Below, in pieces: positions 6,445 through 30,728 of a stretch of 41,314 nucleotides of DNA. The stretch is taken from assembly GCF_002251775.1 (NCBI RefSeq), contig NZ_NOXX01000189.1:1-41314 (forward strand), read 5' to 3'. The translations under genes and the position numbers were made by a program. Below the pieces are notes generated by a model. It had not been told where the DNA came from. It saw only the letters and a list, made by a program, of their open reading frames with translations, and made no database searches. Source of the DNA: Flavobacterium aurantiibacter. GTDB taxonomy: Bacteria > Bacteroidota > Bacteroidia > Flavobacteriales > Flavobacteriaceae. The first letter of the stretch is position 1, and each line of letters opens with the position of its first letter.

Positions 6445-6720
6445 GGGAACGAACGCCGGTAACGTTTTTCGCGTTAGGTGGCGGCGCGTAAATTAAAATG
6501 CCAAATAGCTATTGAGGCTTGGCGTGTTGTTTTGCTTACATCAATTTTTTTTTGGAATGATTTATTGGTTTTGCGTTTAAACGGCGACCAACGGAAGCCC
6601 GTTTACTGCCTAGCCGAAAAGCGATTTGGCGTTTTTATTGCAGCAAGCAACCGGCGGCGGCTGTTTCGGTTTTTCCAGTGAATGAGCCGCCGAAACGCCC
6701 AAATTAAAAAAATAAGCGTT
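6445..6720 (+). repeat. Dispersed intergenic repeat, copy A
   Basis: It shares with copy B (14671-14848, opposite orientation) the 12-mer at 6453-6464 (ACGCCGGTAACG), the 19-mer at 6582-6600 (CGGCGACCAACGGAAGCCC) in the same order, and a similar A-rich far edge next to GCCGCC/CGCCC at about 6686-6716. The middle differs in length and sequence. An open frame of 67 codons runs through it but looks like no protein. Confidence 0.6.
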
Positions 6721-6872
6721 AGCGTTATAGTTGATGAGAGTAATTGAAATTTGCGAGTGTTTATTTTTATTAAATGATTGATTTACAATTATATTACACG
6801 AGGTAATATTGCAATATTACAAATGGAAAATAACAAAGTCGAATCTGCGCCTTTTCAAACGATTTGCAGCGC
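6721..6872. other. Gene-free stretch with palindrome cluster
   Basis: AT-rich spacer between copy A and the 3' end of the DnaE gene. GTAATATTGCAATATTAC at 6803-6820 is a perfect 18-base palindrome. The half-site ATATTAC also occurs at 6791-6797, making three alternating half-sites. The only ORF after it has 17 codons (ATG 6823) and is not credible. Confidence 0.5.
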
Positions 6873-9800
6873 TTAAATCTTCATCCGTTGTCTCGGTAAA
6901 TTAATTTCGTGTTCCTGCGGATAGGGTTTTCGGTGTGTGAGGCTCACGTCTTCGCGCATGTTTTGCTGCGTTGTGTACGCTCGGGAATTGCTTGCCGAAA
7001 AGCGCGGATCGGGAATAAACGGCATCTTGGCCATTTTTTGAACGGTGATGGTGGGAAAATGGTAGTCGACTTCCACAAAGCCCAACAACAAATAGCAGCC
7101 GCCGCCTTGAAACGGGTATTTTTGCAGGCAATCGGCAAAATGTGCCGTATCGAAAAAAGTACCTTCTACATCGATCCAAGTTCCGAAATACATCGACCCC
7201 AATTTGGTCGGAACGTGTTTTCGAGAAACCAGATACGCCAACATGCGCACCGTTTTTTTGTGGTAGGCGTTCAGATCGCGCGCCAGCACATCGCCTCTGT
7301 ACTTGGTTTTCAGTAAGTCAAACGGACTACAAGACACCGGAAAGTTGAGCAGTTCGATCTCGTCGAAGGCGTCTTCAAAAACACTGCGCGGCAAGTCCGG
7401 AAGTTTAAAAGGCTTGATGGGCTCGGCAAGAAGTTTCCAGTTGCGGTCTTCCGGTTTGAAGTTCACTAAGATCATGCGTGCCCGGATAAGCAACTCGTTT
7501 TTTGAAAGTCCGGTGAAGCGAAATGCCCCAATAAATAGGAGAATTTGTAGGTTTTCGATGCCGATGGGAACGCGTTCGATAAAATTTTCGAGCGATTGAA
7601 ACGGACCAAACTGCGCGCGATTTTCAACGATATCGGCCGCCACTTTAGCGTGTAAACCTTCCAAGTGCATAAAGCCCAAGTACACCACTTTTCCGTAAAC
7701 GGTGGTTTGAATTTCGCTGTTGTTCACGCAGGGATTTTCGATTTGCGCTCCCGCCATTCGGGCTTCGTGCACATATACTTCGGTGCGGTAAAAACCGCCC
7801 TGGTTGTTGATTACGGCTACCATAAACTCGATCGGAAAGTAGGCTTTGAGGTACAAACTTTGGTAACTTTCGACCGCGTACGAAGCCGAGTGTGCCTTGC
7901 AAAACGAGTAGCCGGCGAAAGATTCGATTTGTCGGTAAATCTCTTTGCTCAACTCCAGCGGATGTCCTTGTTTGGCACAGCATTCAAAAAAATGGTCTTT
8001 TACTTTTTGCAACGCTGCCTTCGAACGTCCTTTTCCGCTCATGGCTCGGCGCAGCACATCGCCGTCGGTAGCAGGTAAACCGCCGTAGTGTAACGCAATC
8101 TTGATCACGTCTTCTTGATACACCATAATGCCGTACGTTTCGCCGAGCTGCTGTTCGAAAACCGGATGAAAGTACTCGAACTTGTCGGGAAAATTGTGTC
8201 GGAAAATGTACTCTTTCATCATCCCCGATTGGGCAACTCCCGGGCGAATGATCGACGAAGCTGCGACGAGCGTTTTGTAGTTGTCGCACTTGAGTCGGCG
8301 CAGTAACCCACGCATAGCCGGGCTTTCGATATAAAAGCAGCCGATAGTTTGGCCGCGACTCAAAAATTCGTTGGCTTTTGCTTCGTTTTTCGACAAGCGC
8401 GTATCTCGGATGTTTACCGTAATGCCTTGGTTTTTGGCAATTAACTTCACCGAATCGTCGATGTGTCCGATGCCGCGCTGACTCAAAATATCGAATTTAT
8501 CGAAGCCCACATCTTCGGCGATATGCATGTCGAATTGTACAATTGGAAAACCTTTGGGCGGCCGTTCCAAAATGCTGTAGTTGGTGATGGGTTCTTCGGA
8601 AATCAAAATACCGCAGGCGTGCATGCTGCGTTGGTTGGGGTATTTTTCGAGTAAGGTTCCGAATTCGTGCACCAGTTGCACTACCTGATTTTTATCGTGT
8701 ACCGTAAGCGGATGCGTAGCCAGGAAATCGAGTTCTTCTTTCGGAAGGCCGTACACTTTTCCGACTTCTCGAATAATTGAACGGTATTTGAATTCGACAT
8801 TGGTTCCGCAAAACGCCACATGATTGGGGCCGTATTTTTCGAAGATGTATTCGAGAATCGTATCGCGTTCCTTCCACGACCAATCGATGTCGAAATCGGG
8901 CGGTGTTTTCCGATTCAAATTCAGGAAACGTTCGAAGTACAAATCGAGTTCAATGGGACAGATGTCTGTAATTCCGAGGCAGTAACTCACAATACTGTTG
9001 GCTCCGCTGCCGCGACCAATGTGCAGAAAACCCCGACTGTTGCTGAATTGTACGATGTCCCACGTAATGAGAAAATAGCCGTTGAAGTTCAGCTCGTCGA
9101 TTACTTTTAGTTCTTTTTCGACTCGTGCTTGTGCCGCTTCATGCTTAGCGCCGTAGCGTTTTTCCAGACCTTCGTAGGCGAGTTTTCGCAACAGTTGCGC
9201 ATCACTTTCTTTGCTTCCGGTGAAGTTTTGCTTGTTTTTAGGTGTTCTGAATTCGAATTCGAACTGGCAAGCCGATAAAATTTTGTACGTATTTGCCACG
9301 AGTTCGGGATAATCGGCGAAGTAGCGTTCTAAACGTGTCGGTTGCACGAGTTGTTCGGAAAAGTGTGCGTGATCTTGCGGTTGCAGTTTCGAACGCAAGG
9401 TGTTTAGATCGATGGCGCGGAGTATGCAATGCAGTTCGTATTCGGTTTTATTTCGGAACGTTACCGGTTGCAGCACTACGGCTCGACTGCTCAAAAAACC
9501 GCGATCGTATTTATAACACTGTGAAATTTGCGAAGGTTTGAAGCCTAGAAACTCGAAATCGCGCAGGGTTTCGGGTTGGTTTTCGAGCGGATAAATCACA
9601 AAAACGTTCTTAAACTCCGGCGCGCTGTCGGGAATTTCGATGTTGTTGAGATTGCAATGCGTTATAAACCGATTGATTTCGGTAAGTCCGGTAGTGTTTT
9701 GTGCTAATGCAATGAATTTAAGTTGGTGATTTGCTCGACACTCGACACCAACTACCGCTTGGATTCCGGCCTGATCGCACGCTTTTTTGAAGTCGTAAAT

Positions 9801-9929: not shown

Positions 9930-11083
9930 TACAAATTGTCTTTAAGGATGGTTTCGGCCCGACCTACAGCTTTAAATCCGAATCGGAGTTTGATTTTGTC
10001 CATGGCTTGGTAAAGCGCCAACATTTCGAGCGTATCTTCAAAAAGATTGATTTGATAATTGCCGTGCACCAAACCTTTTAAGTTTACGCCGAGCATACGA
10101 ACACGCATGCGCCGTTGGTAATTTTTTTCGAAGAGTTCGTGCGCCGTTTTAATGATTACGTGGTCGGCAGCGGTGTAAGGCAGAGACGCTTGCCGGGTTT
10201 CGGTATCAAAATTGGCGTATTTGATTTTCACGACCACACACGAAGTAAGCCACTGCTCGGTACGCAATTGGTGTGCTAACTTTTCGCACATCGCGGTAAG
10301 CAAAGACCGCATGGCTTTTACATCGATGCTGTCTTGTTCAAACGTGCGTTCGGTGGAAAGCGATTTGCGTTCGCGATAGGGTTCCACCGGATTGTAATCG
10401 ATGCCGTTGGCTTTTTTCCAAAGTTCGATGCCGTTTTTTCCGATGAGTTGCTGCAAGACTTCCACGGGCATTTCTGCTAAGGTTTTGATGTTTCGAACAC
10501 CAATTCGCGACAACAATTGGTAAGTAACATCGCCCAACATCGGAATTTTTTGAATGGGAAGCGGATCGAGAAAGCTACGCACATCGGACTGAGGAATTTG
10601 GATTTTCCCCTTGGGCTTGGCTTGTCCGGTTCCGATTTTGGAAACGGTTTTGTTTATGGAAAGTGCAAAACTAATTGGCAAACCGGTTTCGCGAACAATT
10701 TTTTGCGCAAGCTCGGTGGTCCATTTATACGAACCGTAAAAACGATCCATTCCGGTAATGTCGAGGTAATGTTCGTCGATGCTGGCCTTTTCGAAAAGTG
10801 GCGCTTCTTCCTCTATAATTTGAGTGACTTCTCGGGAAAGTTTGGAGTACAATTCCATGTCGCCACGAATTACTTTTGCATCCGGACACAGTTTAAGTGC
10901 CATTCGCATGGGCATGGCCGAACGCACACCAAACTTCCGCGCTTCATACGAACAAGAAGCCACCACACCGCGGTCTCCACCGCCCACAATTAACGGAATA
11001 TTAGCAAGTTGGCTGTTGTTTCGTTTCTCACAAGAGACAAAAAATTCGTCTAAATCCATATGTACAATTGCTCGTTCTATCAT
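9929..11083 (-). CDS. dinB: Y-family DNA polymerase IV (DinB)
   Basis: The 384-residue protein keeps the active site of Y-family polymerases: Asp10 in HMDLDEFF and the pair Asp103/Glu104 in SIDEHYLD. It should therefore polymerise, unlike ImuB, which lacks these acids. Palm, fingers and thumb occupy about residues 1-230, and a little-finger domain follows. QINLF near residue 346 fits the beta-clamp binding pentapeptide. It is the first gene of the operon, overlapping dnaE by one base, and is divergent from the S24 repressor across an 84-base promoter region. Role: error-prone lesion bypass. Confidence 0.92.
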   Translation of the reverse strand: MIERAIVHMDLDEFFVSCEKRNNSQLANIPLIVGGGDRGVVASCSYEARKFGVRSAMPMRMALKLCPDAKVIRGDMELYSKLSREVTQIIEEEAPLFEKASIDEHYLDITGMDRFYGSYKWTTELAQKIVRETGLPISFALSINKTVSKIGTGQAKPKGKIQIPQSDVRSFLDPLPIQKIPMLGDVTYQLLSRIGVRNIKTLAEMPVEVLQQLIGKNGIELWKKANGIDYNPVEPYRERKSLSTERTFEQDSIDVKAMRSLLTAMCEKLAHQLRTEQWLTSCVVVKIKYANFDTETRQASLPYTAADHVIIKTAHELFEKNYQRRMRVRMLGVNLKGLVHGNYQINLFEDTLEMLALYQAMDKIKLRFGFKAVGRAETILKDNL

Positions 11084-14669: not shown

Positions 14670-14670
14670 T

Positions 14671-14848
14671 TCAGCGTATTTTTTTGGGCGGCATCTCGCG
14701 CTTTACACTGCAAGGCGCGTCGCCAAAAAACGTTTCAACCGCGCGTTGTTGGGGCTTCCGTTGGTCGCCGCTACAACTCGGGTTTCAAGCGCTTTTCGGC
14801 GCCACGGCTTTTCGTTTCAATCGCGGCCGCGGCAAGCGTTACCGGCGT
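14671..14848 (-). repeat. Dispersed intergenic repeat, copy B
   Basis: Inverted relative to copy A (6445-6720). Exact shared words are GGGCTTCCGTTGGTCGCCG at 14752-14770 (19 bases) and CGTTACCGGCGT at 14837-14848 (12 bases), plus a similar edge with seven T then GGGCGGC near 14680-14692. Overlapping open frames here look like artefacts of its GC-rich composition. Confidence 0.6.
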
Positions 14849-15114: not shown

Positions 15115-15612
15115 ATGGCGATTAGACGAAAAGCGAGCGTAGTAAGCCCTAGATTGGCTGCTAGAAAAGTAACGGCTAAAGTAAGCCATCCTGCTTCAGT
15201 GTCGATAATTTACTCTGGAATGGAACAATCTGAAAATCAAATGACGCCATTTGAGAAGATGGAAAAATTACATCAAGGCATCAGTAAAGCGCATTTAGAG
15301 CGTCTTAAAGTCAGAACTGAACTAGATTATGATAAGTTGTCACACGTTTTGTCTGTAACACGATCAACTCTCATAAAGAAAAAAGGTGAGCAAAAATATA
15401 GCTTTGCGGTTGGAGAAAGAATATTAGATTTAGCCGACATCTATTCGTATGGATACAAAGTTTTTGAAGATGAAGTCAAATTTAGAGACTGGATGTTTAA
15501 ACCAAATCACGCATTAGGAGGAAAAGCTCCCTACGATATATTAGATAATCAATTTGGAAGACAAGAAGTCAGAAATCTTATTGGGAGAATTGAGTACGGT
15601 GTTTATTCCTAG
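15115..15612 (+). CDS. Xre/MbcA/ParS-type antitoxin of a RES module
   Basis: The 165-residue protein has a basic, probably disordered N-terminus (1-35). A helix-turn-helix region follows, with LDYDKLSHVLSVTRSTLIKKK near 70-90. The C-terminal DUF2384 domain reads VGERILDLADIYSYGYKVFED, then FRDWMFKPNHALGG, where the Trp-Met-Pro-Leu-Gly pattern is diagnostic. Such antitoxins bind and neutralise the RES toxin encoded five bases downstream and repress their own promoter. An internal start at Met36 is possible. AT-rich relative to neighbours. Confidence 0.85.
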   Translation: MAIRRKASVVSPRLAARKVTAKVSHPASVSIIYSGMEQSENQMTPFEKMEKLHQGISKAHLERLKVRTELDYDKLSHVLSVTRSTLIKKKGEQKYSFAVGERILDLADIYSYGYKVFEDEVKFRDWMFKPNHALGGKAPYDILDNQFGRQEVRNLIGRIEYGVYS

Positions 15613-15617
15613 AGATT

Positions 15618-16073
15618 ATGCTTGTATATAGATTAGGAAATACCCGATACAGCAATGAATTAATGGTGACAGGAGCAAAGTTATTTGGAGGTCGATGGAA
15701 TAACGTGGGAACAGCCTGTCTTTACACAGCAGAATCTCGTGCTTTAGCCTTGCTTGAATATACTGTTAATGTTAATATATCAGATATACCTAAAATATTG
15801 AGTTTTACTGTAATTGAAATACCAGATACAAATATTCTAGAATTAGATATCCAGGTCTTGCCTCCGAATTGGAAAGATTTTCCTGCACCTTCTTCAACAA
15901 AAATATTTGGGACAAATTTGCTAAATACTGCTGATAAACCCATAATAAAAATACCTTCGACAATTGTTCAGCAGGAATATAATTATATTTTAAATCCTGA
16001 ACATTCTGAAAGTCAGCTTTTTAAAATTGTAAACATTGAAGATTTTATCTACGACACTAGAATAAAATCATAA
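15618..16073 (+). CDS. RES-domain NAD+-degrading toxin
   Basis: The 151-residue protein has the RES pattern: Arg in VYRLGNTRY (5-9), GGRWNNVGTACLYTAES (24-40) leading to ALLE with a conserved Glu, and a late Ser/Gln-rich EYNYILNPEH region (about 115-124). RES toxins such as MbcT degrade NAD+ by hydrolysis or phosphorolysis and stop growth. It starts five bases after the antitoxin stop. Full length for the family. No export signal. Confidence 0.85.
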   Translation: MLVYRLGNTRYSNELMVTGAKLFGGRWNNVGTACLYTAESRALALLEYTVNVNISDIPKILSFTVIEIPDTNILELDIQVLPPNWKDFPAPSSTKIFGTNLLNTADKPIIKIPSTIVQQEYNYILNPEHSESQLFKIVNIEDFIYDTRIKS

Positions 16074-30481: not shown

Positions 30482-30578
30482 ATCAAAAAATTAAAACAAA
30501 ATTTCGGTCTCGCAAGTTGCTAATTTACGGCGAGAAATGCGGCTTAAATGTTTACTAAATTTCAAGTAGGTTTTTTAG
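30482..30578. other. Spacer carrying the peptidase promoter region
   Basis: AT-rich upstream region of the leftward peptidase gene. No exact TAnnTTTG was found. Confidence 0.3.
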
Positions 30579-30728
30579 AAGCTATTCCCGCTTTCCGCAA
30601 TAGTGCCGCCTCAAAACGCAACAATACCTAAAAGTTTGTTCGGCTTCTTGGGTCGCCAACCAAACTTTTGGTCTTGTAAGCGTTTTCTTATTGGCAGCTA
30701 TTTTGCTTCAATCGGGGCTATGCGGATC
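30579..30728 (+). repeat. Dispersed intergenic element with GCTATTCCCGCTTTCCGC / CAATCGGGGCTATGCGG ends
   Basis: Edges at 30581-30598 and 30708-30724 resemble, from memory, a repeat widely scattered between genes in Flavobacteriaceae. The centre differs and contains CGGCTTCTTGGGTCGCC (about 30640-30656), loosely like the core of copies A and B. No protein is encoded. Confidence 0.45.

Follow-up and report, generated by a model that had tools for sequence, protein, structure and literature searches.

Long-arm relatives of the Flavo-1 RNA in Flavobacterium aurantiibacter: a folded, high-copy intergenic repeat

The window, by which we mean the whole 41,314-nucleotide stretch of Flavobacterium aurantiibacter DNA analysed here, contains three copies of a folded intergenic element (Table 1). 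Copy A has the hemD gene and the DNA polymerase III alpha gene as its neighbours. Copy B is placed after a DUF2797 gene, with its 3′ A-run ending 9 nt off the stop codon of that gene, and before an Xre/MbcA-type antitoxin gene. Copy C is flanked by an S46 peptidase gene and an AbiH-like gene, and a GGAAACGATC leader is located just outside it. Two further features can be mentioned for the surroundings of copy B: the antitoxin ORF and the ORF that follows it immediately (window positions 15115-16073) are a possible toxin-antitoxin pair, and in a relative of 88-92% identity (L263, G166) another repeat replaces the region upstream of the copy.

Table 1. Positions of the element copies and of their parts in the window.
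Feature	Position	Strand	Description
Copy A	6458-6706	+	diverged long-arm element with extended 3′ hairpin; outer limits drawn by eye, guided by siblings L039 and L071
Copy A, outer ends	GCGTT 6471-6475 / AACGC 6694-6698	+	
Copy A, conserved tip hairpin	6583-6599	+	GGC-GA-CC-AAC-GG-AA-GCC
Copy A, arms of extended 3′ hairpin	6655-6667/6680-6692	+	
Copy B	14679-14843	-	complete long-arm element
Copy B, conserved tip hairpin	14753-14769	-	
Copy C	30560-30726	-	long-arm element; limits are those of the model match

The initial annotation had described two blocks, A and B, as sharing exact words around a variable middle. Both blocks are real, while the third one, copy C, had been overlooked. The 19-base word CGGCGACCAACGGAAGCCC is indeed found at 6582-6600 (+) and 14752-14770 (-), and in 0 of 100 shuffles, and the 12-base word ACGCCGGTAACG accompanies it in the same order (6453 on the + strand, 14837 on the - strand). 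The opposite orientation and the word-to-word spans of 148 and 97 bases are also as claimed. The variable middle is genuine and corresponds to the inner part of a folded arm, where the 5′ arm of copy A has ca 50 nt extra. The word GCCGAAAAGCG, on the other hand, does occur in both blocks, but in different arms and a third time at 6994, and it was therefore treated as a chance match.

In the fold, which is formed by one strand of the element, two symmetric 3x3 internal loops interrupt the outer stem, and the stem is followed by a variable middle arm and a tip hairpin that is almost invariant; the paired positions change together. The anatomy was derived from 70 distinct sites among the loci taken, at least two of which are assembly artefacts (L049, L063+1185). 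The element is ca 165-250 nt long and consists of a leader (often GGTAACGATTNCC), the outer stem with its internal loops, the arm, the tip, the mirror strands and an A-rich end, the start being often T-rich. There are six helices in an element of ca 165 nt, and some copies, copy A included, have one further hairpin ahead of the end. The 19-base word is the tip of the conserved hairpin, for which the near-invariant consensus is GC-GA-CC-NNN-GG-AA-GC.

The folding of aligned copies, which had been suggested as a check, gave a conserved structure of 29 pairs with strong support for the pairing. The alignment consists of 87 copies, namely 61 of the 65 own copies and 26 of the 73 others, with L014 (copy A itself), L024, L032 and L051 left out as odd. 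Standard pairs occupy 85.7% of the cells compared to 60.5% after shuffling, where some excess is to be expected since RNAalifold derived the structure from the same alignment. When the partners are slid by 1-3 columns, the pairing drops to 34-48%. The covariation score is 0.627 (0.185 for the shuffled case), and 747 cells are changed on both sides, compared to 272. Changes on both sides occur in 25 of the 29 pairs, which alone is a weak sign, as the shuffled and slid controls reach 21.5 and 19-21, respectively. The rows were chosen by the tip word, with up to two mismatches in the own genome and exactly elsewhere, and the invariance of the tip helix is thus in part a result of the construction.

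The core helices are almost entirely of Watson-Crick type (1304 pairs, with 24 G-U, 7 A-C and 55 other combinations). G-U pairs constitute 24 of 1328, compared to 45 of 503 in 23 tRNAs of the fetched loci, a rough control because the tRNA output held standard pairs only. Of the two strands, the sequence strand gives the better fold in 55 of the 65 own copies and in 84 of 107 other copies, and folding of these same copies reveals no G-U excess on that strand. The scarcity of G-U pairs, together with a strand asymmetry that involves no such excess, means that RNA and single-stranded DNA both fit.

The copies in the window were compared with two covariance models, R1, in which copy B is itself a row, and R2, which was built from 32 named relatives with none from the own genome or from two near MAGs. 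All E-values for these models are rough, as the calibration was short. Copy B is matched by R1 at 14670-14835 with 133.3 bits (E 1.6e-30) and by R2 with 82.9 bits (E 2.7e-18), while the values for copy C are 51.1 bits (E 2.7e-10) and 61.5 bits (E 3.5e-13). Copy A is hit only at 6543-6642, with E 2.5e-5 for R1 and 1.2e-6 for R2, such that the independent model recovers all three. In the R2 alignments, copies B and C show the outer stem and, on each of its strands, the internal loops of the consensus; copy A does so in part (the same 6543-6642). Relative to shuffled sequences, the fold has a z of -6.27 for copy C and -2.86 for copy B, and a 139-nt part of copy A folds weakly better than its shuffles (z -1.88).

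The blocks can be linked by homology to the Flavo-1 RNA (RF01705; PMC2864571), as a long-arm variant and not as a scoring Rfam member. At the gathering threshold, Rfam finds three tRNAs in the window and no Flavo-1 match in copies A, B or C, which do not reach the 42 bits required, and against the Flavo-1 model A and B have no match at E <= 1. In the own genome, four of eight loci score 28-35 bits, one further locus 36.5, and one short copy 66. Among 16 loci of named relatives, nine have a Flavo-1 match at gathering and seven have none; in eight of the nine the match is on the long copy (44-63 bits), in the other one on another copy (L082). The connection is provided by the gap between truA and msbA, where related species have short forms (82.6 and 72.9 bits) or a long form (50.4 bits) in an identical location and with a common outer stem. 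The long arm takes the place of the short hairpin on this stem, which explains why Rfam misses the copies in the window. Flavo-1 and the element have in common the outer stem with internal loops, the occurrence in Bacteroidetes and the occupation of this gap by both forms. They differ in that the Rfam model has 76 positions and a short plain terminal hairpin, which is absent here, whereas the form in the window is ca 60 nt longer and ends in a long arm with the conserved GCGACCARCGGAAGC tip. We consider the assignment to Flavo-1, as a long-arm variant, to be firm. The initial annotation did not recognise the family; its observation is correct, and the matter is larger than it had noted.

The proposal of a non-coding repeat family is supported by both word and model matches throughout the genome. 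Far from being absent elsewhere, the 19-base word has 27 genomic matches with at most two mismatches (0 for the reversed control), and its 16-base core has 84 (8 for the control). With 150 of 677 candidates scored, the own genome has at least 147 model matches at E <= 0.001, a number that includes duplicates since the assembly seemingly has redundant contigs (the same scores appear on C185 and C189). Two near relatives have at least 149 and at least 147 matches, and four further relatives, each consisting of one contig, at least 47, 78, 72 and 21 (150 candidates scored in every case). In 1.504 Mb of the own genome and one relative, in tiles partly picked for holding copies, there are 146 matches at E <= 0.01, and extrapolation from these suggests well over 200 copies per genome when weak ones are included. 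With up to 72 candidates scored per genome, matches were obtained in 22 of 25 genomes of the genus (the own one included) and none in the other three, and in 3 of 15 genomes from other genera of the order. The number per genome within the genus ranges thus from 0 to at least ca 150. An exact-pattern scan of named genomes gave at least 111 loci, mostly from Flavobacterium; among the loci listed outside it are Capnocytophaga, Psychroflexus, Aureivirga and one Chitinophagales MAG. The pattern has no exact match in viral contigs.

The genomic setting was examined for 143 of the 146 matches, the other three not being entered in the gap analysis. An ORF of at least 100 aa is overlapped by 21 of them, and 101 are placed between two ORFs. 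These 101 gaps are convergent in 36 cases, divergent in 21 and tandem in 44, compared to 70, 80 and 208 in the background. Convergent gaps are thus in excess (36/101 vs 70/358, p 1.4e-4), and in 64 of 101 cases the ORF on the 3′ side has its end facing the element (p 0.009), statistics that come from a crude ORF caller with no control of gap length and from tiles partly chosen for copies. In the tandem gaps, 28 copies are in the opposite orientation and 16 in the same one. If dnaA marks the origin, there is no bias with respect to the replication direction (63 of 136 transcribed copies; 197 matches in three genomes). When the single-contig genomes G010, G051 and G060 are pooled, the + orientation predominates among the copies of the first and last quarter and the - orientation among those of the second, a post hoc pattern that would be a fork bias only with an origin away from dnaA. 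A separate observation concerns the palindrome TAATATTGCAATATTA, present in the window at 6804-6819. At up to one mismatch, 11 of its 18 sites in the sampled 1.5 Mb are within 400 bp of a Flavo-1 match, a zone that holds 8.4% of the bases, and 9 of these 11 are on the 5′ side of the match.

The suggestion that the element is mobile finds indirect support in the uneven copy number, in two copies that are 95% alike inside while their flanks are unrelated (51% and 43% similarity), and in the turnover between truA and msbA described below. The empty sites and target duplications that had been proposed as signs to look for were, however, not found. In a relative of ca 95% identity, both flanks were initially located for 20 of the 65 copies, with odd gaps in six cases, and the three that were aligned (L024, L034, L049) all have an element. 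There are 21 orthologous copies in this relative by a comparison whose gap filter excludes empty sites. Both flanks are present in the other genome for 17 own copies and for 15 of the relative, two sets that mostly represent identical sites, and none of these is an empty site; two of the own and one of the relative copies have gaps of 2-3 kb in which the copy may not be the same one (L025, L076). The lack of an empty site at ca 95% flank identity implies that the activity is low at present, or that the gains are old. In the relative of 88-92% identity, from which 40 contigs were taken, none among those bearing its 147 listed matches, eight copies have a flank match, and the three that were aligned are rearrangements or short shared repeats and no clean empty sites. 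The copy-B region as DNA query against 150 genomes of the genus gave mainly coding matches at ca 65-78% identity, too distant for an intergenic comparison.

Inspection by eye revealed neither a target duplication nor a clean terminal inverted repeat, and no transposase or autonomous copy was recognised. Outside a 957-nt pairing at L236, a scan of 1.5 Mb with the outer motifs gave no version bearing an ORF. It left 15 unpaired motifs, two of which are copies interrupted by a short repeat. Such short repeats interrupt Flavo-1 copies in L303 (ca 1560-1760, with ends like TTAACGTGAGTT) and in L226 (reverse strand, 10335-10679, with ends like AACCTGAACTCGA), and near matches in the sampled tiles number 20 for TTAACGTGAGTT and 39 for ACCTGAGTTCGA, counted without a chance control. 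L320 contains a different GC-rich element (reverse strand, 10395) that starts with GCGTTACGG and ends with AACGCCCAAAAAAA; its ends resemble those of Flavo-1 copies of the copy-A type, and its start occurs twice in the tiles.

The orthologous operon gap between truA and msbA was followed over 30 loci, which were classed by eye as having the long form (5), a short or interrupted form (10) or no element (15). On a tree of 35 rows, composed of five named long rows that were found via the element itself and 30 loci from a query containing it (75 genomes with a match), presence and absence require 13 changes, of which at least 10 are forced by well-supported branches, and cluster no more than shuffled labels do. 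The long form is clustered (5 changes vs 8.9 for shuffled labels). Even close sisters can differ: L350 has the long form and L364, at a distance of 0.025 changes per site, has none. Loci without the element often hold other repeats, and the gap thus shows no precise empty site; in L358-L375 these are often palindromic or tandem repeats of the TAAGC or TTAGT types. Over long time scales, the element looks mobile or replaceable.

The initial annotation had also considered the element to be a mosaic, and at two sites the same outer stem does carry different inner arms. Long and short arms alternate inside one outer stem between truA and msbA, and at L024 the own genome and the relative have the flanks and the outer stem in common, with a similar tip and an inner arm of different sequence (the own copy is additionally interrupted by another repeat). 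These differences fit an exchange of arms between copies, but they also fit very fast compensatory change, and paired changes between close strains are indeed present at L034 and L066. Gene conversion was considered for L066, where the data are better explained by changes at paired positions in the copy of the relative.

Taken together, we lean towards the reading that the long-arm Flavo-1 relatives are non-coding structured intergenic repeats that spread as dispersing elements, a view that is favoured and not proved. The element would then spread non-autonomously, with the fold as the recognition feature of an enzyme presumably encoded elsewhere; most copies would be passive, and a few between co-oriented genes, such as those between truA and msbA, may serve as leader structures. 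Dispersal is also opposed by the truA-msbA site being common to several species, which fits function or age, and by a fold of greater complexity than mere dispersal would require. In an alternative view, the family consists of true RNA genes or cis-regulatory leaders that ordinary duplication has multiplied, with each copy acting as RNA. The strong covariation, the near-invariant tip and the better folding of the sequence strand would be natural in that case, as would the position of the truA-msbA copies, which are in gene direction just ahead of the msbA start, and according to the text of an F. psychrophilum transcriptome study, several 5′ transcribed regions coincide with Flavo-1 matches (PMC9723704). 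The same text, however, places matches on the sense as well as the antisense side of transcribed regions and many outside any such region (PMC9723704), and the range in copy number inside one genus, the use of both orientations in tandem gaps and the few G-U pairs (by the rough tRNA control) make this explanation an unlikely one. The few G-U pairs would instead suit a structured DNA-level site at the ends of genes, either single-stranded or cruciform, with a role for instance in termination or chromosome organisation, and so would the enrichment of convergent gaps and of ORFs ending towards the element (gap length not being controlled). Such a role is quite unlikely considering the asymmetric folding energies of the strands, the three genomes of the genus with no match and the absence of a replication bias with dnaA as origin.

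As to the agent of dispersal, the high copy number, the intergenic location and the hairpins bring to mind REP-like repeats moved by a Y1 transposase of RAYT type. Among 24 relatives of the same genus, the mean number of matches is 37.7 for the 15 with a RAYT-sized Y1 gene and 15.9 for the 9 without (p 0.017), with counts from up to 72 candidates per genome, our own sorting and no control for kinship. Nevertheless, by this sorting such a gene is missing from genomes with at least 46, 41 and 27 matches, the element is far longer than REPs, and no clustering is seen at 20 Y1 loci, where 179 kb hold 9 matches at E <= 1, to be compared with the 146 at E <= 0.01 in 1.504 Mb of different genomes. 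This explanation is therefore improbable, and the absent neighbourhood enrichment rules against a Y1 transposase as the partner. A more specific and less probable form of the dispersal reading is a mobile element that propagates as a folded single strand (RNA or ssDNA), is recognised by its internal loops and has an inner arm exchangeable at a fixed site. A long arm would there be swapped for a short one, or for another long one, while the outer stem stays. Such an element, if real, would stand apart from both REP/RAYT and MITE as a separate kind of bacterial repeat.

With dispersal as the preferred reading, Flavo-1 is in its behaviour closer to a dispersing repeat than to an ordinary small-RNA gene. 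A gene family listed in Rfam as a small RNA appears to be a high-copy repeat with none to at least ca 150 matches per genome, and its site occupancy appears to turn over between species. If this holds, the question shifts from a regulated gene to the copying agent and the reason for the strict fold. The family itself is known, as one table row in the 2010 discovery paper by Weinberg et al. (PMC2864571) and in the table of a review (PMC9029176), and in the passages on Flavo-1 of these and of the transcriptome study no function is reported (PMC2864571, PMC9029176, PMC9723704). The high copy number, the long-arm form and the site turnover were not found described in those passages; among the papers listed on repeats of Flavobacteria, none was on point.

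REP palindromes carry a tetranucleotide tag. The REP/REPIN systems with RAYT transposases (PMC2817692, PMC3116915) resemble the present element in being high-copy intergenic hairpins of uneven distribution. A REP is, however, described as a palindrome of 20-40 bp (PMC3733652), whereas Flavo-1 has ca 165 nt in a multi-helix fold, with no Y1 neighbourhood. Bacterial MITEs, as outlined in PMC10969869, are likewise short, non-coding and dispersed. They differ in that neither clear terminal inverted repeats nor target duplications were recognised in Flavo-1, where the pairing is instead internal and interrupted by conserved unpaired loops.
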